DNA from: Arbacia lixula
Lineage: Eukaryota; Echinodermata; Echinoidea; Arbacioida; Arbaciidae
DNA length: 64,000 nucleotides
Direction of reading: 5' to 3'
Assembly: GCA_963669155.1 (NCBI GenBank)
Contig: OZ022585.1
Span: forward strand, 12,109,149 to 12,173,148
In this document: one piece after another, positions 13,884-60,295 of the stretch
Layout: each line of letters begins with the position of its first letter
How positions within the stretch are numbered: position 1 is the stretch's first letter
Notes under the pieces: model-generated
What the model was told of the DNA's origin: nothing
The model's input: only the letters and a program-made list of their open reading frames with translations
Databases searched by the model: none
Program-made: the position numbers and the translations under genes

Positions 13884-16055
13884 TTACCTTTTTGGACAGG
13901 TCTGTTTGTTATGGTCCTTTTCGCCACATTGCCTACAAGTCACTCTATACATAACCTTTTTTTGACAAGTTGGTTCAAGGAATTCTATACTGTTTTGCTT
14001 CTGCATAATTTGTTCTAAAGCAGCTATCGGCCGATGATTCGATCCTTTGAAATACCAATTTGTTATTCTGTCGTTAAGTTTCTCAAAACTTTGCTGTGAA
14101 AAGGATGAAATATTTCCATGAATTTGTATTGCTTTGCTGACATGCTGAGCAAAAATGTGCATATACAGCGTTACATCCTTTGCCAAATAGACCTTGGCAT
14201 AGTCAGAGACCCATTTCTTGGTACCTTTCTGAAAAGCTTGAAGCTCTTCTGATGACATGTCACGTTTCATTGTGTCTGTTAACTCCCAAAAAGTTTTCCA
14301 AAGTTTTTCAATGTGCTCGAGTTTGGGGTGCCAAGGCATTAGGTCTTTCAAAGAAATTGATGATTGAATTCTGCGGTGTTCTGGGCCTGTAAAATCTCGA
14401 TGAGTCAGAAAGCCGGTTTGTTTGTCCATCCCAAAATGCCACAGAATCCCAATATCTTTGATAAATGACTCAAATCTACTAATGTTTCTACACTTATCCA
14501 TGTCCACATTTTTCGAATTTTTATTAATATTGTCTCTTGTTTTTAATTCAGTAATGACTTTGTTAACCAACTGGTCAGAGATTTGAAGGTACATGTGTAG
14601 TGGATCCGGTATGTAATGAGTTATTGGTATAGATAGTATAATTGGTGGACGTTTACAACCATACGGCTCATGTTTATTTGACTTTTTTGCCGATGACATT
14701 TCAACCATTTTTTCAATTGTCTGAATCCCAAAGTCAAGGTGTACATCAGAAAATTTAGAAGATGGGCACTTACACCATGCACATGAATAGGTTCCACAAC
14801 ACCCATTCATCCCTAGTATTTCATTGGTAAACTTCAGATCAGCACAAACAATGAAAGTGGTTGGAACTGTCTTTCCATGTACAAGTATACCTCTTTTACC
14901 AATAGTAGCAATTTCAACTTTCAGAGCATTAAAAGAACGATTCATGCAATCATATTTCTCTGATGTGTTTGAAATGACCAAAATTAAATCATCTGATTTC
15001 CAGTTGTCTGTAAATACACAAAACGCATAGTTTGTGACATGGCATCGCTTGCCCATTGTAGTACCATCCCCACTAAGTTTCACAGTTACTTTCTCAATTC
15101 TATTCTCACAGTCAAATATATTTTCCAACACACTGACTAGTTTCTTTTCAAGACTTTCAAACACACCCTCCCCATTTGGGAGATATTTAATTTCGAACAA
15201 TGAGTTAAGCTCCTGTCGTTGATTATTTACTGCATACAAGGACGGATATCCTGATCCGTCCTCACTGGCAAATTCTCGATAGGCAAGATCACTGGTTAGG
15301 GTCTTATCCTTTTTATAAAGTGCTTTTTGAACAGATATTGTTACCTGCTCGGCACATTCACTTTTCTGAACAGTAACCCCGGAACTGTCTACACATTTAT
15401 ATTGTGGCATTCTGATGCCTTCGCCTGCCAAAAATTCTCTTGCAAAATTAATGTTTTGCTTCATTCGCTCCTTTCGGAAACGTTTCCAACTTCGGCTGTA
15501 TGAAGGTTTGTCTTTAACATTGCATCTTGGTTGTACAGGCCTTTTCATAAGCCTTCCAAGTAACACATAGGCTTCCTTTGTTTTTTTCCAGAAATTTTTC
15601 ACCATTTCTTTCTTTTCCTGTACTTTCTCCTCTGCTAAACGGCATTTTTTCTTTTCACTTTCTAGTTCATGATTCAGCTTGCGTTTATACCCACCTAATT
15701 TCAAGCTATAGGATGATGATTTTAATTTCTCTATCATTGATTGACTTTGACGTCCCCCCTTTCGCACAGCATTTTTGGCAGTTGACATTATATTGATAAT
15801 TTTTTTCCGGAGATTATCACACACTTTTTCAGCGTCTACATGTTCAATTTTTACTTTCTCTTGTTCACAAAGAGTTTCCAAAATTGATCTTGCCTGGTCG
15901 TGGGTGTTTAAATCGCTTTTCTCTTTAATCATTTCATACAGGACAAACTGATTGACAAGGATAGACCAGTCATCTTGCCTATTGCCACATATTAGGGAGC
16001 TCCCCATGAGAATAAATGTAATGTACACGTACATGTATGCAGTGAGTAATGCCAT
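13884..16055 (-). CDS. Transposase-like protein with C-terminal CCHC knuckle (723 aa)
   Basis: An intact ATG-initiated frame of 723 residues. A hydrophobic segment near residues 5-22 is probably just the start of the frame; a lysine/glutamate-rich coiled-coil-like region lies at about 90-165. LSGDGTTMGKR (about residue 328) offers an aspartate in a beta-strand context like the first DDE acid of RAG1/Transib-like enzymes. A Cys cluster CCGTYSCAWCKC follows at about 420-432, and then ITHYIPDPLHMYL. Near the end FSQQSFEKLNDRITNWYF precedes a zinc knuckle C707-C710-H715-C720. Part of the family is repeated at 36542-36830, so it is multicopy and most likely a DNA transposase. Which superfamily it belongs to is not settled; RAG1-N-linked elements (N-RAG-TP) are one possibility. 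Confidence 0.6.
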   Translation of the reverse strand: MALLTAYMYVYITFILMGSSLICGNRQDDWSILVNQFVLYEMIKEKSDLNTHDQARSILETLCEQEKVKIEHVDAEKVCDNLRKKIINIMSTAKNAVRKGGRQSQSMIEKLKSSSYSLKLGGYKRKLNHELESEKKKCRLAEEKVQEKKEMVKNFWKKTKEAYVLLGRLMKRPVQPRCNVKDKPSYSRSWKRFRKERMKQNINFAREFLAGEGIRMPQYKCVDSSGVTVQKSECAEQVTISVQKALYKKDKTLTSDLAYREFASEDGSGYPSLYAVNNQRQELNSLFEIKYLPNGEGVFESLEKKLVSVLENIFDCENRIEKVTVKLSGDGTTMGKRCHVTNYAFCVFTDNWKSDDLILVISNTSEKYDCMNRSFNALKVEIATIGKRGILVHGKTVPTTFIVCADLKFTNEILGMNGCCGTYSCAWCKCPSSKFSDVHLDFGIQTIEKMVEMSSAKKSNKHEPYGCKRPPIILSIPITHYIPDPLHMYLQISDQLVNKVITELKTRDNINKNSKNVDMDKCRNISRFESFIKDIGILWHFGMDKQTGFLTHRDFTGPEHRRIQSSISLKDLMPWHPKLEHIEKLWKTFWELTDTMKRDMSSEELQAFQKGTKKWVSDYAKVYLAKDVTLYMHIFAQHVSKAIQIHGNISSFSQQSFEKLNDRITNWYFKGSNHRPIAALEQIMQKQNSIEFLEPTCQKKVMYRVTCRQCGEKDHNKQTCPKR

Positions 16056-16080
16056 TGTGAAATAAGACTTCAGTACTCGC

Positions 16081-16741
16081 TTAAACTATCTCTAATTTAT
16101 CTAACTCAGGACCATTTCCCAAAGCTTTAACAAATCTTAATGACAGAACAAATCCTCTGTAGACATCTTGCTGCTTCAGTTCCGATCTCACTTTGACAAA
16201 CTGAGTCAGACACTTGCGCTCGTGAAGCCAAAACTGGATCGTGCCGTCGACAATATATGCATGATCCCCATGCTCATTGCACAAACGGTACCACCAATGC
16301 TCGTCACCAAAGTACTTTGAAAGGTTCCGCAGTGTGGTGCGATAAAAAGTGTCTGACTTTTCTTGTTGTGAGGTCGGTGATGCTAGATTCAGAAATTCCT
16401 GAAATGTGTCATACTGAACAGGGATACGTATAGTTACTTCAGAATCATGACGTCTTTGAATGTGAAGGCTCTCTTTTATTTTGACTCTCAAATCAAATCT
16501 TAAGAGGGCTAACGCATCTGATACACGCACATCTTGGGAACGAGAAACGTCTTCCGCAGGTCACCATTCATCGTAGCTACTTCTCCATCCCCGGTAATGA
16601 ACAAGCACCTCCTTTCTGCCGTTAAACACACGTTCTCCTGCTATCTCGATTTCCCACAGCTTACTAGTCGACCAAGTTTCAAAGGCTTCCCATTGTGCAG
16701 TTCTACATAATCCACATGCGGTTTGGTACGAAGATTCATCA
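16081..16741 (-). pseudogene. Chromodomain-like ORF interrupted by one TGA
   Basis: After acceptor TTATATCACAG at 16742 the frame reads QWEAFETWSTSKLWEIEIAG then ERVFNGRKEVLVHYRGW, a chromo-like pattern (hydrophobic strand, V-H-Y-x-G-W). It stops at TGA 16561-16563 directly after SSYDEW and continues in the same frame PAEDV... to a TAA at 16081. A CGA-to-TGA or TGG-to-TGA change would explain the stop. The second part ends 25 nt before the ATG of the 723-residue ORF. Upstream exons are implied by the acceptor but were not found. Chromodomains bind methylated histone tails and could target integration (family knowledge). Confidence 0.5.
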
Positions 16742-17694: not shown

Positions 17695-17872
17695 GAACGT
17701 CGGAGGTCGAACTTCACCTCCTAATACACACACATGCCATGTTTCATTAGGATACCTGAAAAGGTTTTGATAGTTACCCTGTCCACAAAATTCATTACAG
17801 ACGGACGGACGGACGGACAACCCGAAAACATAATGCCTCCGGCACCACTTCGTGGCGGAGGCATAAAAACAA
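17695..17872. mobile_element. Short interspersed element with terminal GCCTCCG hairpin
   Basis: The segment contains GACGGACGGACGGAC and ends in ATGCCTCCGGCACC / GTGGCGGAGGCAT, a hairpin-forming end. I recognise this sequence type as common in marine invertebrate genomes. A Helitron-like or SINE-like nature is possible; it has no coding capacity. Confidence 0.45.
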
Positions 17873-17926
17873 TATTTAAATTTCATTCTCCCAGTAAACG
17901 TCTGTAATGAAATACCAATCAGGCCT

Positions 17927-19023
17927 TGCATTTTTGTCTCGCCCACCGGAGGTGAAGGCGAGACTAAGGGATCCAAATGGCGTCCGTCCGTCGTCCGTCC
18001 GTCGTCCGTCCGTCGTCCGTCACAAATGTTAAAGTTTACCTGCAAGACTCTCTTATGATCCATAACTTGGCAACTGTTACAGCAATGGCAGCCACACTTG
18101 GTTGATAGAAGCACTAGGGGTATCTTCATGTTATGGTGTTGTCAGAGGTCATGTGATGATGTCAAAGGTCATTTGAGGTCATATATTAAAGAGTATGTGC
18201 AAGACTCTCTTTTTCTATGTTAAAGTTTACCTGCAAGACTCTTTTGACAAATAACTTCACATAGGTTGCTTGGATTACAACCTAACTTGGGTCATAGATG
18301 CACTGGGGGTACCTTCATATTATGGTACCGTTGGAGGTCACAGGATAAGGTCAAAGGTTATTTGAGGTCATACGTTAAAGTTTACCTGCAAGACTCTCTT
18401 TTGACAAATAACTTCACATGGGTTGCTTGGATTACAACCTAACTTGGGTCATAGATGCACTGGGGGTACCTTCATGTTATGGTGTCGTTGGAGGTCACAG
18501 GATAAGGTCAAAGGTCATTTGAGGTCATACGTTAAAGTTTACCTGCAAGACTCTCTTTTGACAAATAACTTCACATAGGTTGCTTGGATTACAACCTAAC
18601 TTGGGTCATAGATGCACTGGGGGTACCTTCATGTTATGGTGCTGTTGGAGGTCACAGGATAAGGTCAAAGGTCATTTGAGGTCATACGTTCAAGTTTACC
18701 TGCAAGACTCTCTTTTGACAAATAACTTCACATAGGTTGCTTGGATTACAACCTAACTTGGGTCATAGATGCACTGGGGGTTGCACTGGGGTAACTTGGT
18801 GGAGGCTTTTTATTCCATCTCAAAGAAGGGGGAAGGTGGGGGAGGGGGAGTAGATAGAGGAAGTAGCATTGCGTGAAATAGCCCTTCTCATTTATGGAAT
18901 GTTACACTCTATGGCAGATATTTCACAATCAGCCAGGGATACAATTCTTTTGCGTATAGCATCGGAGATCGCGATATTTCTGGTTATTTTCGCAAGTGGG
19001 CGAGACACAATATTGCTAATGCC
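17927..19023. mobile_element. GTCTCGCCCAC-ended transposon, copy 1
   Basis: The ends are TTTTTGTCTCGCCCACCGG on the left and GTGGGCGAGACACAATATTG on the right, inverted repeats with core GTCTCGCCCAC. Both ends and the first 300 bp (CGTCCGTC repeats, then CCTGCAAGACTC units) match copy 2 at 21846-22405. This copy is longer because its internal 157-bp unit is repeated about four times, and it has an extra 150 bp around 18795-18940. It ends inside the coding frame of the F-box-like gene, supplying its present stop codon at 18984. Confidence 0.8.
18223..18795 (+). repeat. 157-bp internal tandem repeat of the transposon
   Basis: CTGCAAGACT recurs at 18231, 18386, 18543 and 18700, a period of 155-157 bp. 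Each unit carries AAGGTCATTTGAGGTCA, that is, AGGTCA half-sites in tandem. The sister copy has only about one unit, so copy number varies between insertions. Confidence 0.85.
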
Positions 19024-20080
19024 ATGTTTCTTGTATTTCTGGTCACCCTTATCCAAGCATCCCTCCATCTGGGATTAGAGCCCATCCACCTCTCAAGTTC
19101 TAAATAAATCCCTCTTGCAGGTGAATTAGCTATTTTCTGAACACTTATCCTACCTCTGTCTAACAAGTCATAAGCCCGAGCTTCATTCATGTGAATTTCC
19201 TTATAGTACGAAGATGCTAAATCTCTAAAAACTGAATCAACTCTGACTATTTGTCCCAATGCTGAATAATCCATATCTAACACATATTTTATGATTATAT
19301 CACACATCTCTGGTGGGAGAACACATGTACATGTATCATCGTGATCATCATCATTAGATGAACAGTCCTCATGATCACTTACATGTACACCAAAAGAGAT
19401 ATTTTGACTGCATTCAATAACTTCTTCAATAGCTGCCACATTAAAATCTGAATAATTTGCAGTAAAGTGATTACCATATATACTGAACTCTGCATGTTCC
19501 TGGTTTGAAATCATGCCTGACTGCTTATGTTGCAGCTGGCATGAGTCAAGCACAGATTTCTCAGAAGCCTGAATGCTGCAATAATCATGATCACACCTAA
19601 CTGTCTCAATGTTAGCCAACCTAAAGTTATTATCATTGCTTACTGAGTGATCATCAGACCTGTGGTAAGAGCGGCCATATGGCCTAGAGCTGCTGTTGTT
19701 GTGGTCAGTGGGTCTGTGGACAATCTCACTGTTTGTGTCATCAGGCCCGTGGTGAAAGTAGTCATCAGGGTCGTCACTGTGGTCATGTTGGTCCGAGAGG
19801 TTTGCATGAAAACCAAGAATCGATTTTGTCATTAATTCATAAGCCATGCACTTGCGGAAGTTCTGTAGGAAACCAAGTGTATTTGGAAATTTGAATTTGC
19901 ACTGTAACAGAATGCATTTACAGTACAGAGCAACAAACACTCCACAATTGAAACCATCTTTCTGCCTAGGAAACTCAGCTTGAGAAGTTGGGGAGGAAAT
20001 AGTCCAAAAGAAATCATGAAATGATTCAGAAGTGTGTATTGCAGCCAGCTGGATTGACAAATAACCAACAGCTTTTTTTT
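19024..20080 (-). pseudogene. Ulp1 catalytic-Cys segment, acidic linker and F-box-like C-terminus
   Basis: Continues the frame broken at the T8/A8 run 20073-20080. FPRQKDGFNCGVFVALYC (about 19920-19980) holds the conserved Gln and catalytic Cys of Ulp1/SENP (C48) proteases, whose His and Asp lie just upstream. A His/Asp/Ser-rich low-complexity linker follows (about 19340-19830). Then LPPEMCDIIIKYVL and IVRVDSVFRDLAS (about 19190-19320) match the F-box pattern of hydrophobics, which would bind SKP1 in a ubiquitin ligase; this last call is tentative. The frame ends in transposon copy 1, so the original C-terminus is lost. Confidence 0.65.
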
Positions 20081-21845
20081 ATTATGCCGTCATACCCGTC
20101 AAGAGACTGGCCTAATGAATCAAAGAAAAGAATATGGTGGTCCTTAAGGAGAGCAACAAGAAGAACCCAGTGTTTCCCTTCAAAATCATTAATTGGCATG
20201 ATCACTGTGTGGCTTTTTGATACCTGCTCCCTCTGTTTCTTCTTCCGTAAGGTTTCCCTAACTAGACTTTCAACTTCCTGGTCTACATTTCTTATTGTAA
20301 AGGAATTTAAGTATGTAAATCCTTTCTTGTCAAGGAACAGTAGTGTGATATATGAATTTATGACCTCGTCATTTAACCATTCATCCTTAAGCAACCTCCC
20401 CAATGACTCTGTTGATAGCTTTTCACTTCCAATCATTACATCACCTTTGTGACTTTCCAAAATGTCTATCATTGTCTGTGTAGTTTCATATGTAAGTGTC
20501 AGAAAATCTTTATTTCCAGGGTATGCTTTGTCCACATTTTCTATTTCAAGATACTGCTTTTGTATTGTGCTGAGATACGTTGGATCTTCTATTCTATCAT
20601 ACAGACCAATTACATGTTGACATTTTTTACAAACTTCTTGTATGACTGAGAAAGCTTCTTCAGTCTCTGTTTTGCCTATCACTTTATCCCATATACCACT
20701 GTTATTGCACCTATAGAACTGAACTGAATTTTCCCACTGTGCTATAAATGTATGTAACCTGTAGCTTACTTGTTTATATTTCCCATGGATTTCATTTTGT
20801 TTCACTGATATTACTTCCTCTAGCTCTGGATTTCCACCATGTAAGATCATAGTTGGTGGAAACTGAACAGGGTAAGACGGGTCTGACTGTTTCAGAGAAC
20901 ATCTGCATCTCTCACATGTCCCTTCTGAATGTAACCCCAGAGACTGCGTCAAAGCAAGTGTTGTGAAGTTAATTGCTTCACTTTTAATTTCACTAGAAAT
21001 TTTCCATTGAGGTATCCCTGAACATTTACTACATTTAAAGAATGTAGCCAAACCTATGCTAAATAAGTGTGCCACACCAGATTTCACAATTTTTTCAACT
21101 ATTTTTGCAATATCATAAGAAGGGTTTTCCAGAACTTGAATAAAATGCGTGTACGACACATCATCATCCCTCCATATGCTACTTGTTGATTGGTGGTACT
21201 TTTCGGACATGACTTTCTTACCCCCTTCTGTTGATTTGATCATTGACATTAATGTACAGAATTGTTCTCTGTTCAAAATAACATCAGCCTGTGTCAATCT
21301 GATATATGCAACAATGTATGATTCCCCACTAGTGTCCCCAATTGGACGTTTAATTATGTGTCTATCATCTGCAAAGATCATGCCACTCGATGTAAAGATT
21401 GTTGCTGTGTAGTGTCCCCTGTCAGTATCATGACCATGGTGGTGTACAATACCATGCAGGTTATATTTTACAGACTGAATGGTAATGGCCTGAGGTATAT
21501 CAATGGGAGTCATTATTTTCACGCTTTGCTGATTAATTCGGCTGCAGACTCTTGCAATATGGAGCAGCAGGAGTCTGGGGAATGAAACAATATCCCTGTG
21601 TTCTTCAATTGTTTTGTTCACTGTTATTGCAGACTTTCCTACAACACCCATCCTTTGTTTTTGGTTCCATATACTCCAAGATAAGTTCAGACAAGCTGAC
21701 CTTACTTCCATTATGTGAGACTGTCAATGTAAGGAAATTGTGCTTTTCATTTTCTGTTTTTGATTCCAGACATTCTGTGCAAGTTTGTTTACACGCCATC
21801 GTGATTTGTAAATCTATCATGTTAGTGTAAAGGTACGTTTATGCT
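20073..21845 (-). pseudogene. USP C-terminal half and Ulp1 N-terminal half, frameshifted
   Basis: From 21820 down, ACKQTCTECLESK and CC at 21640 look like the zinc-binding fingers of a USP. A frame change occurs around 21605-21620, near a run of four A on the coding strand. The next frame reads FPRLLLLHIARV and then HGHDTDRGHYTATIF with ADDRHI (about 21340-21430), the His box and Asp of C19 ubiquitin proteases. A cysteine-containing domain follows (about 20880-21050). Then SLGRLLKDEWLNDEVINSYI starts an Ulp1 fold with its catalytic GKHWVLLV (His) and FFDSLG (Asp) near 20105-20180. Only the Cys is in the next frame. Ulp1 enzymes process and remove SUMO; USPs remove ubiquitin. Confidence 0.75.
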
Positions 21846-22405
21846 ACTTTTTGTCTCACCCACCGGAGGTGAAGGCGAGACTAAGGGATCCAAATGGCGT
21901 CCGTCCGTCGTCCGTCCGTCGTCCGTCCGTCCGTCGTCCGTCACAAATGTTAAAGTTTACCTGCAAGACTCTCTTATGATCCATAACTTGGCAACTGTTA
22001 CAGCAATGGCAGCCACACTTGGTTGATAGAAGCACTAGGGGTATCTTCATGTTATGGTGTTGTCAGAGGTCATGTGATGATGTCAAAGGTCATTTGAGGT
22101 CATATATTAAAGAGTATGTGCAAGACTCTTTTTCTATGTTAAAGTTTACCTGCAAGACTCTCTTTTGACAAATAACTTCACATAGGTTGCTTGGATTACA
22201 ACCTAACTTGGGTCATAGATGCACTGGGGGTACCTTCATGTTATGGTACCGTTGGAGGTCACAGGATAAGGTCAAAGGTCATTTGAGGTCATACGTTAAA
22301 GTTTACTTGCAAGACTCTCTTATCACAATTCTTTTGCGTAGCAACGGAGATCGCGATATTTCTGGTTATTTTCGCAAGTGGGCGAGACACAATATTGCTA
22401 ATGCC
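21846..22405. mobile_element. GTCTCGCCCAC-ended transposon, copy 2, inside the USP domain
   Basis: 560 bp, nearly identical at both ends to copy 1 (17927-19023) and in the same orientation, with one 157-bp unit. It interrupts the USP frame directly after the QCADAHEY box, where the coding sequence changes from HEYLTQ into transposon-derived GISNIV. No clear target-site duplication was found by eye. The insertion divides two halves of a protease that otherwise keeps its active-site residues. Confidence 0.8.
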
Positions 22406-25400
22406 TTGTGTTAAATATTCATGTGCATCTGCACACTGACCCGACGATACCCCCATAGCTTTCTGTGCTGCGGTGAGAGATGGAATGATATGTTGTCTTT
22501 TAAGATGAGTAATGGTCTTGTTTGAATGAATAAGTGAAAAAAGTTTGTGGATAGTGTCTACAAAGTTTCCATCTTCATCCCTATCAAAAATCACATACTG
22601 ACTGGTACTGGTGTTTTTGCTAAAGATTGATTGTAGAGGTGGGAGTGTAACAATCAGCTGGTTCACTGAATTAAACCAACAATTGTTATCAAAATTGTCC
22701 ATTGGAAGAATTCTGGTATGATCTGATGAGAAGCTTTGCTCCAGTGATCTTTTCCCCCCAAAAGAGAATGGCTTCTTAGGAGCCTCTTGATAGGACAATT
22801 TTGTGTGCTCGGGTTTTCTTTTCTTGTCCCATTTCTCTGTTACAGGTTTGGTAGCTGTAAAAACATCCTTCTTGAAATAGTTCACAAATTGGCGTTCAAT
22901 ACCAGGTATGTCACTCATAAATGCATTAAAAAATTCATCTGTCCTCAGTTTTTTCCGCCTATGAAGTTGGATATTTTTCAATACAAACATCCTATGTTCT
23001 GAAATGCCATTTGTTTTGTCTTGGTGTGAAATTATACTTAAAGATTGAACAGATGACTTGTGGCGTGTCAAATCTCCTAACATCAACATTGACCAAAGGG
23101 GAGTTGATGAAAGGTAGAGACTTTTGATTTTCTGCCAAAATTCAGGGCCATACAAGTCGTTTTCTTCAACTGATGAAGAGTTTTGTATTTCTTTCAGCAC
23201 ATCCATAATGAAAGGTTCAAAGAAGGTCATGAAAGAAGACTTTGTTTTAGCCAAATTTTCCTCTTCATTTAACATAGTAATTTCATCTTTTTCTTCTGTG
23301 GTCTCAGTTGAGGAGAATTCTGTTTCTTCAACATCAGCATATACTTCTTCCTTGTTTAAAGTGGTAATTTTCCGATCAAGATCTGCAATCGCTTTGTGAA
23401 CAAGGTATGTTTTTTTCTCTGACATAGTGACAATGATAATATTTCTCAATCTTGATGTGAACTCGGCCCAGGACTGTGCATTCAAAAGCATGCTAAACAT
23501 GAACATCCCTTTCTGTATTCTTCTTGTATAAAATTCTTTGCACAGCTTCTTGACATCTTTCATTATGTGTGCTGTGCAGTGATGTATTACTGTCTTATCA
23601 AGATCTCTTTGGCAGCCTCTCCCTATTACAATTTTGTAGCATCTATCAAGATATTCTTTGTAGCTTTCCCTATTGAAAACAATGATGGCTGCTAGAACAA
23701 ACACCCATGCCCTATCAGAATTGAATTGCTGAGGGACACACAGATTGCTATTTCCCCCGCATAATTTCCCTTCATGAAAGCGCAAGATATTGAGAAAGTT
23801 GATGATTGTTGGTAAACTGTGGTCACTTGAGATCATCACAGCTACTGGAAGAGGTGAACAGCCAGGAGTAGGGTTTCCTTTTGTTAATTCATAATAAAGT
23901 ATTCTTTTAGAAGTCAATGATGACTTCATGAATGCCCCAGATGCATCTATGTGCACTTTCTGTTTTGGACTCAGAGAATGGAAAGATTTGACCCCACCCA
24001 CCGAAAATCCTATGGCATATAAAGGCTTCATAGAAAAATGTCTAATGAATTGGCTTTCAAAATCATCCTTGGGAGCCACACAGTATCCCTCCATCCCACA
24101 CATTGCTGCCCAACTGTCTAATTCCTTAGCATGCCTACATAAAGGATTATTTGCCTCACTAGATATTTTCTGGAGTACACTGCGTGTTGCTCCAATGCCT
24201 AACCTATTACCTGCCATAAAAGTTTCTGGGTCTTGGCTTCCTAACCCACTACAAAACTTCTTATTTGGTTTTATTCCGAAAGTGAATTCTTCCCTGATTT
24301 GATCCCGCTTTTGTCCTGTTATTTTTCTTGCCTTTCTTTCCTGTATATCATGTGTTATTTCTCCACAACACTCTGCAACACATACAAAAGTTGGAAGCAT
24401 TTTAACAGAAAAGGAAAATGAACAATCTGTAAACGTGCATTTTCCACTACACGAGAAGCCTATCTTGCCCTTTAAAACATAATGATATTTGAATTTTATG
24501 ACACAAATATTGTTCCTTTCCATGATCTTATCAGCAACATAATCTCGCCATTTCTTATTAGTGAATTTCTGTTCTTTTTGGGTTGCTGTCAATGCATCCC
24601 ACATCTTCAAATCAAATGAAAAGGTGAATTTTTTTGGGAAATCATACATGAAATAGTTGCCAGAAAGGTATTTTGAGACAGGACTTCCTACTAATGCATC
24701 CAGAGTGTCATTCTCCAACTGTGTGCTATCTGAATAAGGTGTATCATTGAGTCTCTCTTCATCACACATTCTATCATTACCAAAATTCCTATTCCCCCCA
24801 TTCTTGTCTAAGTTTTTATTCCCACCATCCTCGATTGAACTTTTATTCCCCCCATCCTTGTTTGGGTTCCCATTCCCCCCATCCTTGTTTGGGTTCCCAT
24901 TCCCCCCATCCTTGTTTGGGTTCCCTTTCCCCCCATCCTTGTTTGGGTTCCCATTCCCCCCATCCTTGTTTGGGTTCCCATTCCCCCCATCCTTGTTTGG
25001 GTTCCCATTCCCCCCATCCTTGTTTGGGTAATTCCTATTCCCCCCACCCTTGTCTGAATTCCTATTACCTCCATTTTTGTCCAAGTTCATATTCCCTCCA
25101 TCCTTGTTTAAGTTTCGATTTCCACTATTCTTGTCTGAGTTCCATATCCCTTCATCCTTGCTTAATTTCCACTCCCTCCTACCCTTGCCCATGTTAATAT
25201 TCACCCCATCTTTGTCCAAGTTATTCATCTCACCATTTTTGTCGATGCTACTGCTCTCTCCACCTATGTCTAAATGACTGTTCACCCCATCCTTGTCTAT
25301 GTTAATTTTCCACTCATCATTTTCCAAGGCATCCCTGCACCCATTTTTGTCAAAGTTAATACTTCTCACATCTTTGTTGAAATTGCCATCATCTTTGTCC

Positions 25401-26590
25401 AAGTCAATAGTCCCTCCATCTTCATATGATTTACTACTCGCCCCATATCCATTCAAGCTACCAGTCCCCCTATCTCTGCCTGAGATACTACCTTGAACAT
25501 TATCATCTCCCGAAACATTTCTTCTGCTCAGATCATACCCAGACTCATTTCTATTTCCATCCCTAACCCCCAGCTTAAGCTCATGGGAATAAATGTCACC
25601 TAATCCTTCTCCCTCCCCATGTACTTCACATTCAGAAGTATCCACTTGCTTATTGCTGAATATGTCTGTCTTATCACCTCTATTCCCATATGATGCTAGT
25701 ATCTCGTCCAATTTGCATTTTGTACTTTGAAAAAGGTCTGACGTATCCTCATCGCTATCACTAATAGAAACTGAATCATTGTTACTGCAAATATTACTTT
25801 TCAAACCACCCATCCTATTACAATGTTTTGCATTATCTTCTACATTACTCCTAGGTGATAACTCATAGTCATTACTTCTGGACGAAGGTTCATTTTCTTG
25901 ATCACTAGTTCTACTATCCATCAAGACATCACTATCATTATCCCATTCTTGTTGATCATGTCCATCCTTATCACTGGGACACTTGTTGCCACCTTTGTCA
26001 GAACTATTTCCCACGGTGTTTCTTTCTTCTGTCGAACAGAGATTTCCCTGATTTTTTGGTAGTTTTAACACTTTATTTCCATTATTACATCCATCAACCC
26101 CACAAATGAATTGAACTTTATTACCCCGTTTCAATGATTTTGGAATCCCAAGGCATGAGTAATGGTACCAACTTTCGCATGCCATGCACTGCATGTATTG
26201 GACTTTAGAGTCGTATTGAGTCTGGCAAATGCAATATAGTGGAATATTGCTATTATTGCCCTCCCTTGATTTCTTGACCTGACCCAGCATATTTTGAATA
26301 TTGTTTTTATTTTGATACCATAGTGCTTTCAGAGTACGACTCTTTTGAGAAATCCTTCTACGTGGATACCTCATCCGCTTTGCGACATCCTCCCAGAAGT
26401 TGTTTGTGGCGAAATACTTTTTAGGTTTACCTACCATTGCACTACACATTTCATTTGCAAACAGGTCATAATTAAATTGACTTTTCTTGGGAGCCTTGCT
26501 ATACTTTCTGCCGCTTCCCTTAAGTCCTTGAGTGATGTGTACTTGATGTGTAGTCCTGGATTTTCCTTCCTCCTGCTCCTTTTGATCCAC
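22406..26590 (-). CDS. PHD-transposase-USP(N) part of multidomain TE protein
   Basis: Open for about 1,395 host residues, then 38 transposon-derived ones (stop at 22289). Its first codon is GTG directly after acceptor ATATTTTTAG, so this is an internal exon and the real start lies upstream. In order: a basic N-terminus; a PHD finger at about residues 118-170 (C120, C122, C135, C138, H143, C146, C163, C168); a Ser/Asp/Asn-rich region with GGNGNPNKD repeats; a WRDYVADKIM / CTFTDCSFSF zinc-ribbon-like module; and a transposase-like core with HIDASGAFMKS and NSDRAWVFVLAA as candidate catalytic aspartates. Then NFDNNCWFNSVNQLI supplies the USP catalytic Cys (about residue 1304) and QCADAHEY the second USP box. 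Known PHD fingers read histone H3 tails. Confidence 0.75.
24835..25031 (-). repeat. 27-bp coding minisatellite (GGNGNPNKD)n
   Basis: About seven near-identical 27-bp units (CATTCCCCCCATCCTTGTTT-type on the plus strand) encode G-G-N-G-N-P-N-K-D. Degenerate units (NLDKNGGN, INIDKDGVN) extend to about 25420. The frame is preserved throughout, so the array is a disordered linker between the PHD and transposase modules. Confidence 0.9.
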
Positions 26591-27959
26591 CTAAAAATAT
26601 AATCACAAGTAATCAGAGGATTACTAATCTACATATTTCGAAAGATATTTCTCATTAACATTAACATGAATTGAGGTGTGCATGGGGGTGGGGGCTACAG
26701 ACCCCATAACAATTTTGAAAATGCCAATATTTGGGAAACAGCCCTCTTATATGTGTTGCAGTAATCATATGCCCAAATTTATGATATCTGATTTCTTTTT
26801 TTTTTACACTAATGGCCCAAAACCACTAAAAATGTACAATTCAGGTTTCGGAATTTTGAAAAAATAAAGTTCCCTAAAAATTATCCAGACAACAAAAAAA
26901 TGAAAGAAATGACATTGAATTTGAATTAAAAAATTTATAGGCAACAAATGTCGCGAACTTTTTTTTCTATGATATGTTAAGTTGAACATGGTCATTTTAC
27001 CTCTGTAACTTACGTTACTGTGCTTATTTTTAATTAGCCACATTCATTCTTTGAAGAGCTGGACAATGCCAATATCCTACCATTATCGGATACTTTCAAA
27101 CATCTGACCATTCTAATTTCAAAGTAGCTGACTATACTTTCTATTCATTTTAATGAGTTATTGTTACCGTCAATTATTGTATTGTAATTTTGATCCAGGT
27201 TGTAAACTAGGCAAGCTAGATTGTTCTTTATATCATTCTCATTCTATTACATATAACTTTCATATGCCTACCAAAAGTTATTAGTTGGATTTGTCAAACA
27301 TATATTCTAAAAAAAATTCTATCATCAATTGACAAATGAAGAAGCGAGTGTTCAAACCTTGGTAACGTATGTTACGTATATGAGTCACGTATGTTACAAA
27401 TATTAATCACTAAGAAGAAGAGTGATTTTAAGAGCTTTTCTAAATATCAACAATACCAACATTGCACGAATGCGTCAATACTTCTGGCAGAAGATTTGTT
27501 TAACTGTTATCCGATGTCACCGTCTTTAGAGTGATCACACATTTGGCCTAAAAGTGGAAAATGTGAATAAAATCATTAGATTCCAAGAGCATATATTACG
27601 TCTCAATATGACGAGCTCCACTGCAAAATTACTTGTTAATGTGACCTGTTTAAAACCACAATAATACATTTATACAAAAGTCATAAAAGGCATTATCGAG
27701 TAACCCAAAGTGTATCAGTGTGTAGTATAAATAATGATAACGTATGTTTCAATTATTTCCGGATTGAAATAGTAATCTCTCGAAAGTAGAGATGCGTTGA
27801 AAATGCAAGAATTATGAATCATAAATCTTAAAAAAACCCACATCAAATGTAAATGTACAAACTGGTCAGTATTTAACCTTCAGATATTTTTATAAGTATG
27901 CATCATTATATCTGGCTTTTAACGTAAAAAAACATGAAGGATATCACGCGAGCCTGTGA
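26591..27959. other. Upstream non-coding region with GGTAACGTATGTTAC words
   Basis: No exon recognised. Copies of a 14-15 bp word (GTAAC-n4-GTTAC type) occur at 27005, 27361, 27385 and 27736, and continue further upstream to 30136. It may be the intron preceding the acceptor at 26590. Confidence 0.4.
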
Positions 27960-34085: not shown

Positions 34086-35690
34086 GAGAACCCGAGTCAT
34101 TTTGTTGACGTTATACAGTGCGCCATCTCCGGCAGACCCGTCCGCTGTGTATAATGCGCACAAAGTGTAAGGATTGTGAAAATGAGTGATCAATAAAAGC
34201 CGTCCGGCTGACTATCAAAGCCACTTTTTCCCCCAAATTTCTTGTTTGGTTTGTTAGAAGAACTCCATAGCTACTTCCCATCAAAAGATTATATGAGGTA
34301 ATTTCGCATTAAAGTACTTCAATTTAACAATATGTAATACCTTGTCATACACCGTGCGCCATCTCCGGCAGACCCGTCCGCTGTGTATAAATGCGCACAA
34401 AATGCGAAAATTGTGAAAATGAGTGATCAATAAAAGCCGTCCGGCTGACTATCAAAGCCACTTTTTCCCCAAAATGTCTTGTTTGGTTTGTTAAAAGAGC
34501 TCCATAGCTATTTCCCATGAAGAGGTCATATGAGGTAATTTCGCATTAAAGTACTCAAATTTAACAATATGTAACACCTTGTCATACTCCGTGCGCCATC
34601 TCCGGCAAACCCGTCCGCTGTGTTTGCATTAATGCGCACAAAATGTGAAAATTGTGAAAATGAGTGATCAATAAAAGCCGTCCGGCTGACTATCAAAGCC
34701 ACTTTTCCCCCCAATATTTTTATTTTGTTTGCTAGAAGAACTCCATAGCTACTTCCCATCAAAAGGTCATATGAGGTAATTTCGCATTAAAGTACTCAAA
34801 TTTATCAATGTGGAATACCTTGTCATACACCGTGCGCCATCTCCGGCAGACCCGTCCGCTGTGTATAAATGCGCACAAAATGTGAAAATTGTGAAAATGA
34901 GTGATCAATAAAAGCCGTCCGGCTGACTATCAAAGCCACTTTTCCCCCCAATATTTTTATTTTGTTTGCTAGAAGAACTCCATAGCTACTTCCCATCAAA
35001 AGGTCATATGAGGTAATTTCGCATTAAAGTACTTCAATTTAACAATATGTAATACCCTGTCATACACCGTGCGCCATCTCCGGCAAACCCGTCCGCTGTG
35101 TATAAAAATGCGCACAAAGTGTGAGAATTGTGAAAATGAGTGATCAATAAAACCCGTCCTGCTGACTATCAAAGCCACTTTTTCCCCAAACTGTCTTGCT
35201 TGGTTTGTTAGAAGAACTCCATAGCTATTTCCCATGAAGTGGTCATATGAGGTAATTTCGCATTAAAGTACTTCAATTTAACAATATGTAATACCCTGTC
35301 ATACACCGTGCGCCATCTCCGGCAGACCCGTACGCTGTGTATAAAAATGCGCACAAAATGTGAAAATTGTGAAAATGAGTGATCAATAAAAGCCGTCCGG
35401 CTGACTATCAAAGGCACTTTTTCCCCCAATATTTTTATTTTGTTTGTTAGAAGAACTCCATAGCTACTTCCCATCAAAAGGTCATATGAGGTAATTTCGC
35501 ATTAAAGTACTTCAATTTAACAATATGTAATACTTTGTCATACACAGTGCGCCATCTCCGGCAGGCCCGTGCGCTGTGTAATGGGCACAAAATGTGAAAA
35601 TTGTGAAAATGAGTGATCAATAAAAGCCGTCCGGCTGACTATCAAAGCCACTTTTTCCCAAAAATGTCATTATTTCTGCTTTCTTTGAAG
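34086..35690. repeat. Tandem satellite, about 7 units of 238 bp
   Basis: GCGCCATCTCCGGCA recurs at about 34120, 34356, 34593, 34834, 35071, 35310 and 35549, spacing 236-241 bp. Units share CGTCCGGCTGACTATCAAAG and AGTGATCAATAAAAG, and differ by a few substitutions and indels. Minus-strand frames of 71-89 codons run through it but carry no conserved protein signal. Confidence 0.95.
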
Positions 35691-44237: not shown

Positions 44238-44357
44238 ATTTTCTTCTCCGGAATAAAACAACTCGTGCACGTTAACACTTATTGTTCGATACCGTGAACA
44301 ACTTTCAGGAATGAAAGGCATATTGTGGTAGTGAACATAATACATTTAATTTACTAA

Positions 44358-44960
44358 GATGGGGGCATATGTTGGTACTAGGATGGGGGCATGTGTTGGT
44401 ACTAGGATGGGGGTGTATGTTGGTACTAGGATGGGGGCATGTGTTGGTACTAGGATGGGGGTGTATGTTGGTACTAGGATGGGGGCATATGTTGGTACTA
44501 GGATGGGGGCATGTGTTGGTACTAGGATGGGGGTGTATGTTGGTACTAGGATGGGGGCATGTGTTGGTACTAGGATGGGGGTGTATATTGGTACTAGGAT
44601 GGGGGCATATGTTGGTACTAAGATGGGGGCATACGTTGGTACTAGGATGGGGGCATGTGTTGGTACTAGGATGGGGGTGTATGTTGGTACTAGGATGGGG
44701 GCATGTGTTGGTACTAGGATGGGGGTGTATGTTGGTACTAAGATGGGGGCATGTGTTGGTACTAGGATGGGGGTGTATGTTGGTACTAGGATGGGGGCAT
44801 GTGTTGGTACTAGGATGGGGGTGTATGTTGGTACTAAGATGGGGGCATATGTTGGTACTAGGATGGGGGCATGTGTTGGTACTAGGATGGGGGTGTATGT
44901 TGGTACTAGGACGGCGGCGTATGTTGGTACATGTACTAGGGCATATGTTGGTACTAGGGT
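44358..44960. repeat. 24-bp minisatellite with higher-order pattern
   Basis: About 23 full units of GGTACTAGGATGGGGGCATG-type sequence, followed by degenerate ones. Three variants (core GCATAT, GCATGT, GTGTAT) alternate, and the first ten units follow the order C-A-B-A-B twice (120 bp). The array lies immediately downstream of, and is similar to, the last coding repeats of the minus-strand gene. Confidence 0.95.
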
Positions 44961-44996
44961 GGGTCCATGCTAGTATGGTGGAGGTCCGAGTTGGTA

Positions 44997-59444: not shown

Positions 59445-59496
59445 TTCTTCTTCTTCTTCTTCTTCTTCTTCTTCTTCTTCTTCTTCTTCTTCTTCT

Positions 59497-59543
<47 letters not shown>

Positions 59544-59640
59544 TTCTTCTTCTTCTTCTTCTTCTTCTTCTTCTTCTTCTTCTTCTTCTTCTTCTTCTTC
59601 TTCTTCTTCTTCTTCTTCTTCTTCTTCTTCTTCTTCCTTC
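59445..59640 (+). repeat. (TTC)n trinucleotide tract, about 195 bp
   Basis: Roughly 64 TTC units with one CCTC interruption near 59520. Purine/pyrimidine asymmetry allows triplex (H-DNA). The resulting poly-Glu, poly-Ser, poly-Phe and poly-Leu frames are not genes. Confidence 0.95.
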
Positions 59641-60295
59641 TCAGTTTCCCTTTTTTTCATATATTCCCGTTGTGGTCTTCTCCTTGTTCTGATTCTATAT
59701 TGTTGTCGTCTTTAATATTTCCTTCTCCCGTTGCTCTGCTCTCTCTACATGGACCTCACGGACGTCGTTAATCCCAACTCAGATTATTGCCTATGGGACT
59801 GAGGGTGTTAATCACTAGAATACGTCTGTTCATACTTTATTCTGCTTCCCTCTTTGCGTGTCACATGTGTATTTATTTCATTCACACGTAATACACAGAG
59901 CGACATTTTTGTCTGGGAAAAAAAGGGTTAAGTTATTCATCACATCAGGCGTGTACATACTAAATGGTCCGTTCATACCGTTCATACCTTTGTACTGAGA
60001 CGGGTGAAGTAGTGAAAACAGTAAAAGAGTGAAAATAGGCAATCTACGTCAGCGGGTCTTTTTGAAAATTCATGATAATTGTGAGTCGCACCGTTTGAAC
60101 TCCGCTTCCTTGAGTCACCAGACGGAGCGGATATGAGCAGATTTCGTATATTGTCAGAGATTGTTGTCGAAAACGCGACTTGAAAAACAAGTTTTTGTTG
60201 TATTGTTATGAATCCTGTTTTGGCAAGAAGACTGCTCTAGCCAATCCTCCCGTCCCCTCCCTTGTGTCTCCTTCTCCATCTCTCAACTCTCATCT

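Follow-up and report, generated by a model that had tools for sequence, protein, structure and literature searches.

The stretch analysed here, the window, consists of 64,000 nucleotides from the sea urchin Arbacia lixula (GCA_963669155.1, contig OZ022585.1, positions 12,109,149 to 12,173,148). On its minus strand, at 18.99-26.59 kb, lie three long stop-to-stop stretches of 1433, 565 and 364 codons, which we think are probably the remains of a large DNA transposon. Read along that strand, they encode a PHD finger, a coding minisatellite, a transposase-like core, a ubiquitin-specific protease (USP, peptidase family C19) in two halves, a Ulp1-type SUMO protease (family C48), also in two halves, and a C-terminal segment. 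The original prediction, made from the letters of the window alone, had raised the possibility that these parts form one protein of a mobile element; the PHD finger, minisatellite linker, transposase-like core, C19 boxes (NNCWFNS, QCADAHEY and RGHYTATIF) and C48 domain were all found on the minus strand in the order it had given. Other copies are named below by contig (C1, C12, C14, C16, C18 and C82, all from the same 607-Mb genome as the window) or by locus (L-numbers), and proteins are labelled P0001 to P0012. The features of the window copy, with those of the C1 copy for comparison, are the following.

17710 to 26813, minus strand: whole stretch homologous to C1 by blastn, the element as far as it is shared; its first 226 bases include repeat.
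22292 to 26590, minus strand: 1433-codon open stretch with PHD finger, linker, transposase and first half of the USP (open reading frame and Pfam).
26081 to 26236, minus strand: PHD finger (PF00628, E 2e-6, above the gathering score).
24786 to 25160, minus strand: coding minisatellite in the linker, 27-bp unit; the array is of unequal length in the window and C1 copies.
22766 to 24652, minus strand: DDE transposase core, with D at 23936-23953 (HIDASG), D at 23699-23722 (NSDRAWVF), CxxH at 23561-23584 and E at 22985-23008 (GISEHRMF).
22397 to 22699, minus strand: first half of the USP (PF00443, E 3.2e-6), with Cys box NNCWFNS at 22667-22687 and QCADAHEY at 22415-22438.
21851 to 22405, no strand given: repeat insertion splitting the USP, absent from C1, with a 189-bp tandem pair.
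21355 to 21636, minus strand: second half of the USP (PF00443, E 1.5e-10), with His box RGHYTATIF at 21394-21420 and FADD at 21352-21375.
20098 to 20382, minus strand: first half of Ulp1/C48 (PF02902, E 1.9e-9; PDB Ulp1 1euv, E 1.1e-4), with His in GKHWVLL at 20158-20178 and Asp in FFDSLGQ at 20107-20127.
19827 to 19976, minus strand: second half of Ulp1/C48, after a frame change, with Gln and Cys in FPRQKDGFNCG at 19935-19973 (PF02902, E 0.015 alone, below cut-off).
19029 to 19322, minus strand: F-box-like C-terminal segment (LPPEM...VFRDLA...), whose C1 counterpart is conserved in P0010 and P0012.
17935 to 19027, no strand given: another repeat insertion, related to the one in the USP, close to where the reading frame ends, absent from C1, with a 157-bp tandem array.

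A C48 search of the 607-Mb genome gave 17 matches, including frames of 2317, 1948, 1948 and 1633 codons. The longest, on C1, is the uninterrupted copy that the original prediction had suggested looking for: it is free of stops and contains the PHD finger, linker, transposase, USP/C19, Ulp1/C48 and F-box-like end in the same order as the window. The two uninterrupted 1948-codon copies, on C16 and C18, represent a sister lineage with PHD, transposase, USP and Ulp1, in which the frame ends after Ulp1 and the F-box-like end is lacking. Because these frames are uninterrupted, the USP and Ulp1 are parts of a single frame with the transposase in the C1, C16 and C18 copies and not separate neighbouring genes, a possibility that the original prediction had considered. 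As whole domains, UCH, C48 and PHD matched Pfam with E values of 4.5e-17, 1.5e-14 and 9.3e-6 in the C1 copy and 2.7e-29, 1.7e-16 and 1.3e-5 in the C16 copy, PF00628 being over its cut-off in both and in the window. The USP has the Cys, His and Asp/Asn boxes and the UCH profile match of a C19 peptidase, and the Ulp1 domain the His-Asp-Gln-Cys set and profile match of a C48 peptidase. Against PDB, the 565-codon stretch of the window matched 13 sequences, all of them Ulp1 or sentrin-specific protease 1, 2 or 5; in NCBIfam, the C48 half gave a single match far below cut-off, to a Ulp1-family bacterial protein (E 3.8e-4, 19.3 bits vs 700).

By blastn, the window copy is 96.9% identical to C1 over 17710-17935, 98.5% over 19027-21851 and 93.5% over 22405-26813, the last with gaps in the minisatellite. 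Aligned to the C1 frame, it shows one in-frame stop and, the minisatellite excluded, three indels that shift the frame. One of these indels, of 2 bases at about codon 24, sets the C1 frame apart from the window copy and from both of the fragments on C12, and may be peculiar to C1; for this reason a 5' exon is possible, and the start codon of the frame is provisional. Synonymous divergence (dS) between the window and C1 is 0.038 before the minisatellite and 0.017 after it, with too few changes between the copies for the ratio of nonsynonymous to synonymous divergence to decide. We read the window copy as dead but recent.

The transposase has the characteristics of a DDE enzyme of the Mutator/IS256 kind. 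Residues D847, D924 and E1163 were kept in all ten aligned cores, an alignment made without P0004 and P0010, both of which begin inside the transposase, and the predicted structure most resembled IS256, P-element and hAT transposases. No KDZ-named Pfam match was observed among the ten cores at E 1, in a Pfam library not checked for holding a KDZ profile. A search with the 10-row alignment at E 0.001 revealed the transposase without the proteases in none of 4606 candidates (308-981 residues), which limits, although it does not exclude, such forms. A viral origin was considered and rejected, as none of the 20 pattern-matching stretches obtained by searching a viral contig collection with the transposase alignment was confirmed.

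Two protein searches yielded 9 and 1 relatives with the same transposase, 20-41% identical to P0001, and UCH and/or C48 was listed for all ten. Whole-protein Pfam scans of seven of them (P0003, P0005, P0006, P0007, P0008, P0009 and P0012, thus not P0004, P0010 or P0011) placed UCH over cut-off in six and C48 over cut-off in six. P0012 had no UCH match at E 5, yet its Cys and His boxes align. P0009, from the sea cucumber Holothuria leucospilota, has the order PHD-USP-transposase and no C48, and P0007, a protein of the pearl oyster Pinctada imbricata, matches BAG twice and PHD not at all in Pfam; these differences suggest module shuffling inside a transposase-USP-Ulp1 family. The pearl-oyster relative also pairs the USP and Ulp1 with the transposase. 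The BAG domain and the F-box-like end are lineage-specific. P0008 lacks the front part, and the first part of P0011, which is retained in the counts, resembles an unrelated gene joined to it by the gene model. In domain alignments, the USP catalytic residues C1269, H1506 and D1522 were kept in 12 of 12 sequences and the Ulp1 residues H1920, D1937, Q1989 and C1995 in 11 of 11. Trees of the transposase, USP and Ulp1 domains built with FastTree each recovered the clades P0001/P0010/P0012, P0002/P0003/P0004, P0005/P0006 and P0007/P0008, with branching within and between these clades varying from tree to tree and a P0007-P0008 support of 0.56 in the USP tree. Since the catalytic residues are unbroken at such low identity and the same clades appear in three trees, the three domains have descended together for long under constraint, and we therefore argue that the transposase, USP and Ulp1 all matter to the element.

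The F-box domain fared differently from the other modules that had been proposed. PF00443, PF02902 and PF00628, the profiles named as checks for the USP, Ulp1 and PHD parts, all matched, whereas PF00646 did not reach its cut-off anywhere. Pfam found no match on the C1 C-terminus and none besides C48 on the 364-codon stretch of the window; the best PF00646 score, on one of the three C-terminal pieces scanned (P0012), was E 0.14, with 12.5 bits vs a cut-off of 20.5. Recast for one pre-named family instead of 24,736, this E value becomes about 6e-6, times three pieces, and the score is still below cut-off. The C-terminal segment of C1 has 35% identity to its counterpart in P0012 and 31% to that in P0010, and all three show the pattern LP-x-E-[IM]...F-x-x-LA. 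The AlphaFold model of the segment had a mean confidence (predicted local distance difference test, pLDDT) of 62.6, its structure comparison returned no F-box among eight matches, and a profile search of PDB sequences gave one unrelated chain (E 0.92). The F-box-like nature of the segment is thus only suggestive, and the domain itself is unconfirmed.

Mobility was addressed in both lineages. The sister lineage comprises three long copies and at least 10 other places with protein parts at 67-99% identity. Six truncated or partial places were examined with their flanks (C82, L005, L006, L030, L036/L045 and L039). Tandem arrays of a 214-bp unit stand inverted on both sides at four of them (C82, L005, L006 and L030); at the remaining two, of which only one side was covered, a point near codon 485 abuts the array directly. 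At C16 and C18, within the stretch covered, the array was seen 3' of the copy and not 5' of it. Foldback-type termini occur also in other superfamilies, for example in Galileo of the P group. A 186-base subterminal sequence of the sister lineage scored at 40 places (of 102 candidates) with 93-100% identity. Of 12 such places fetched, one had a masked flank; the other 11 have a common outer terminus and start point, and at all 11 readable termini, one with a variant first triplet, the flanks differ by eye. No target-site duplication of 7-12 bp was seen at C82, nor one of 8-12 bp at C16, where 5.1 kb upstream was searched and the 5' end is not fixed. Outside the C82 array, a 12-bp identity to the sister-lineage 3' terminus marks a candidate 5' end only, its score being reached in 7 of 2000 shuffles locally and in 57 of 500 over the whole flank.

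The window lineage was found on C1, in the window and as two 5' fragments on C12, which lie within their own duplicated unit. Visual inspection where the shared stretch ends revealed no terminal repeats, nor did comparing the C1 region with its own inverted sequence, and no terminal tandem arrays were seen beside the C1 copy. The search for terminal repeats and target duplications, which the original prediction had recommended, thus succeeded for the arrays of the sister lineage but not beside C1, nor for a duplication at C82 or C16. Judged from these sequence comparisons, its proposal of a mobile element lineage is well supported for the sister lineage and indicated for the window lineage, of which two long copies and two partial ones occupy separate positions.

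Several further observations were made around these copies. Two sister-lineage subterminal sequences lie 225 bases apart on opposite strands of C14 (456894-457079 and 457305-457490), and their element bodies point apart, suggesting adjacent insertions. Upstream of the C16 transposase frame and on the same strand, a 559-codon open stretch (L013:6041-7717, minus strand) contains a coding minisatellite and weakly matches GDSL lipase, short of the cut-off (E 0.0031); the C18 copy is likewise preceded by a stretch of this kind. The two insertions in the window copy belong to the same repeat family, which starts GTCTCGCCCACCGGAGGTGAAGGCGAGAC, with one base different in the insertion at 21851-22405; each holds a tandem array (units of 157 and 189 bp), and stretches related to the family were noted around 21.8-26.1 kb in the C1 region. 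Downstream of the element, window positions 13884-16560 (minus strand) hold stop-to-stop stretches of 733 and 159 codons, the longer ending in a CCHC-like knuckle; they had no Pfam match over cut-off and are possibly another mobile element. Other tandem arrays of the window are at 34118-35675 (237-bp unit), 44352-44963 (24-bp) and 59445-59641 (TTC), and Rfam and tRNA searches of the window returned nothing.

Among known systems, the Mutator-like Rehavkus elements are nearest in anatomy. They too combine a PHD finger with a DDE core in a transposase protein read from a single frame (PMC6446971, PMC10218199), and are described with a minisatellite and a 9-bp target duplication (PMC6446971) and with inverted termini of tandem repeats (PMC10218199), the unit being 164 bp in Rehavkus-1_TC and 214 bp in our sister lineage. 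What sets them apart in the passages describing them is that no USP, Ulp1 or F-box is mentioned and that the hosts are insects and annelids (PMC6446971, PMC10218199); beside the C1 copy of the window lineage, for its part, no terminal arrays were seen. Ginger1 resembles our element in the Ulp1 or OTU protease at the C-terminal end of its transposase and in the PHD finger of one of its families, and its authors suggest that the ubiquitin and SUMO pathways play a role in transposition; in that account, however, the core is of the Gypsy-integrase type, apparently unlike ours, Ulp1 or OTU is present but never both, and no C19 is listed (PMC2836005). In Trichomonas, according to the same source, a C19 domain accompanies a transposase_11 protein; it also names Mutator-like elements that combine a Mutator-kind DDE core with C48, for which it describes no C19 partner (PMC2836005). 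Helentron-type Helitrons likewise encode deubiquitinases, VTD or OTU, and the VTD is enzymatically active; these elements differ in being rolling-circle transposons with other protease families, and the helitron VTDs tested there did not react with SUMO probes (PMC9741609). That an F-box can accompany a DNA transposon protein is already known from Zisupton/KDZ elements, although the transposase there appears to be another one and, in the part of the source concerned, no USP and Ulp1 pair is mentioned (PMC12062965). The open-licence literature searched, which does not take in Repbase entries, contained no description of a USP and Ulp1 pair on one transposase. The original prediction knew of no described element combining a deubiquitinase, a deSUMOylase, an F-box and a histone reader; the protease pair bears this out within that literature, but the F-box is unconfirmed and the PHD finger is only a putative histone reader. 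What appears new here is the fusion of a ubiquitin-type and a SUMO-type protease to the same transposase, one-protease transposons being already known; the pair may already sit unremarked in Repbase Rehavkus entries.

SUMO has an established role in small-RNA silencing, and SUMO-targeted ubiquitin ligases are known to exist. As the best explanation of the whole, we consider it probable that the window holds a recently inactivated large DDE DNA transposon whose USP and Ulp1 are fused to the transposase and would act in cis. The transposase gene would encode one polypeptide of about 2,300 residues with a PHD finger, a repetitive linker, a DDE core of RNase-H fold and IS256/Mutator-P-hAT kind, C19, C48 and, in the window lineage, the F-box-like segment. 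We hypothesize that the transposase cuts and joins the element ends while the two proteases strip SUMO and ubiquitin off the transposase itself or off proteins on the DNA there, so that the transposition complex would be spared degradation and SUMO-dependent silencing. Placing or regulating that complex would fall to the PHD finger and possibly also to the F-box-like segment. Such cis action is the most economical reading, whether the shield is against ubiquitin turnover, SUMO silencing or SUMO-targeted ubiquitin ligases. A more specific version, which we put forward tentatively and regard as doubtful, is a built-in counter to these ligases: Ulp1 would remove SUMO and the USP the ubiquitin built on SUMO, the transposase bound to the element ends and the surrounding chromatin would escape degradation and SUMO-dependent small-RNA silencing, and the PHD finger and F-box-like end would choose the targets.

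Four other explanations were weighed against this one. That the modules belong to adjacent genes or pseudogenes brought together by chance might be concluded from the window's own frames, all of which are broken, but uninterrupted frames elsewhere in the genome rule this out and the same fusions recur in database proteins, leaving it next to no probability. The main rival is polyprotein processing, in which C48 (or C19) frees the transposase from the neighbouring parts, in the way that DNA viruses use C48-related proteases for the maturation of their proteins. It would fit the very long single frame with its long low-complexity linkers, as well as the weak similarity of the C48 domain to Peptidase_C5, the adenovirus endoprotease (E 0.033 in P0005 and 0.1 in P0006). 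The same two domains match far better as Ulp1 (9.3e-14 and 3.3e-16), however, and processing alone would not require the element to retain two distinct proteases, of ubiquitin and ubiquitin-like type, which makes this rival unlikely.

The proteases could instead be passengers, pieces of host USP and SENP captured by the element and of no use to it. The lineage-specific BAG domain and F-box-like end are in keeping with such uptake, and Mutator-like elements tend to take up host gene fragments (PMC6446971); but idle passengers would hardly have intact catalytic residues at 20-41% identity to P0001 and the same clades in three domain trees, and we judge this very improbable. Finally, the window lineage might be a domesticated, transposon-derived host gene family spread by segmental duplication, as the copies listed include one uninterrupted (C1), one long and broken (the window) and two 5' fragments, and no terminal repeats were found around C1. 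Against this, the window and C1 copies lie on different contigs, are 98.5% identical over 19027-21851 and are surrounded by different sequence outside the shared stretch. The window copy is a dead one, and insertions of the sister lineage are found at many sites; domestication thus appears improbable to us, and a transposon with its proteases acting in cis is the explanation we prefer.

What use a protease is to a transposon was already asked in the Ginger1 paper (PMC2836005). A pair of proteases that is fused to the transposase and has descended with it makes this question testable, as uninterrupted copies are available, the active sites can be removed separately, and stability of the transposase, SUMO at the insertion and excision can all be read out by standard means. 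If true, this would be a further example of a selfish element that edits host protein marks at its own site.

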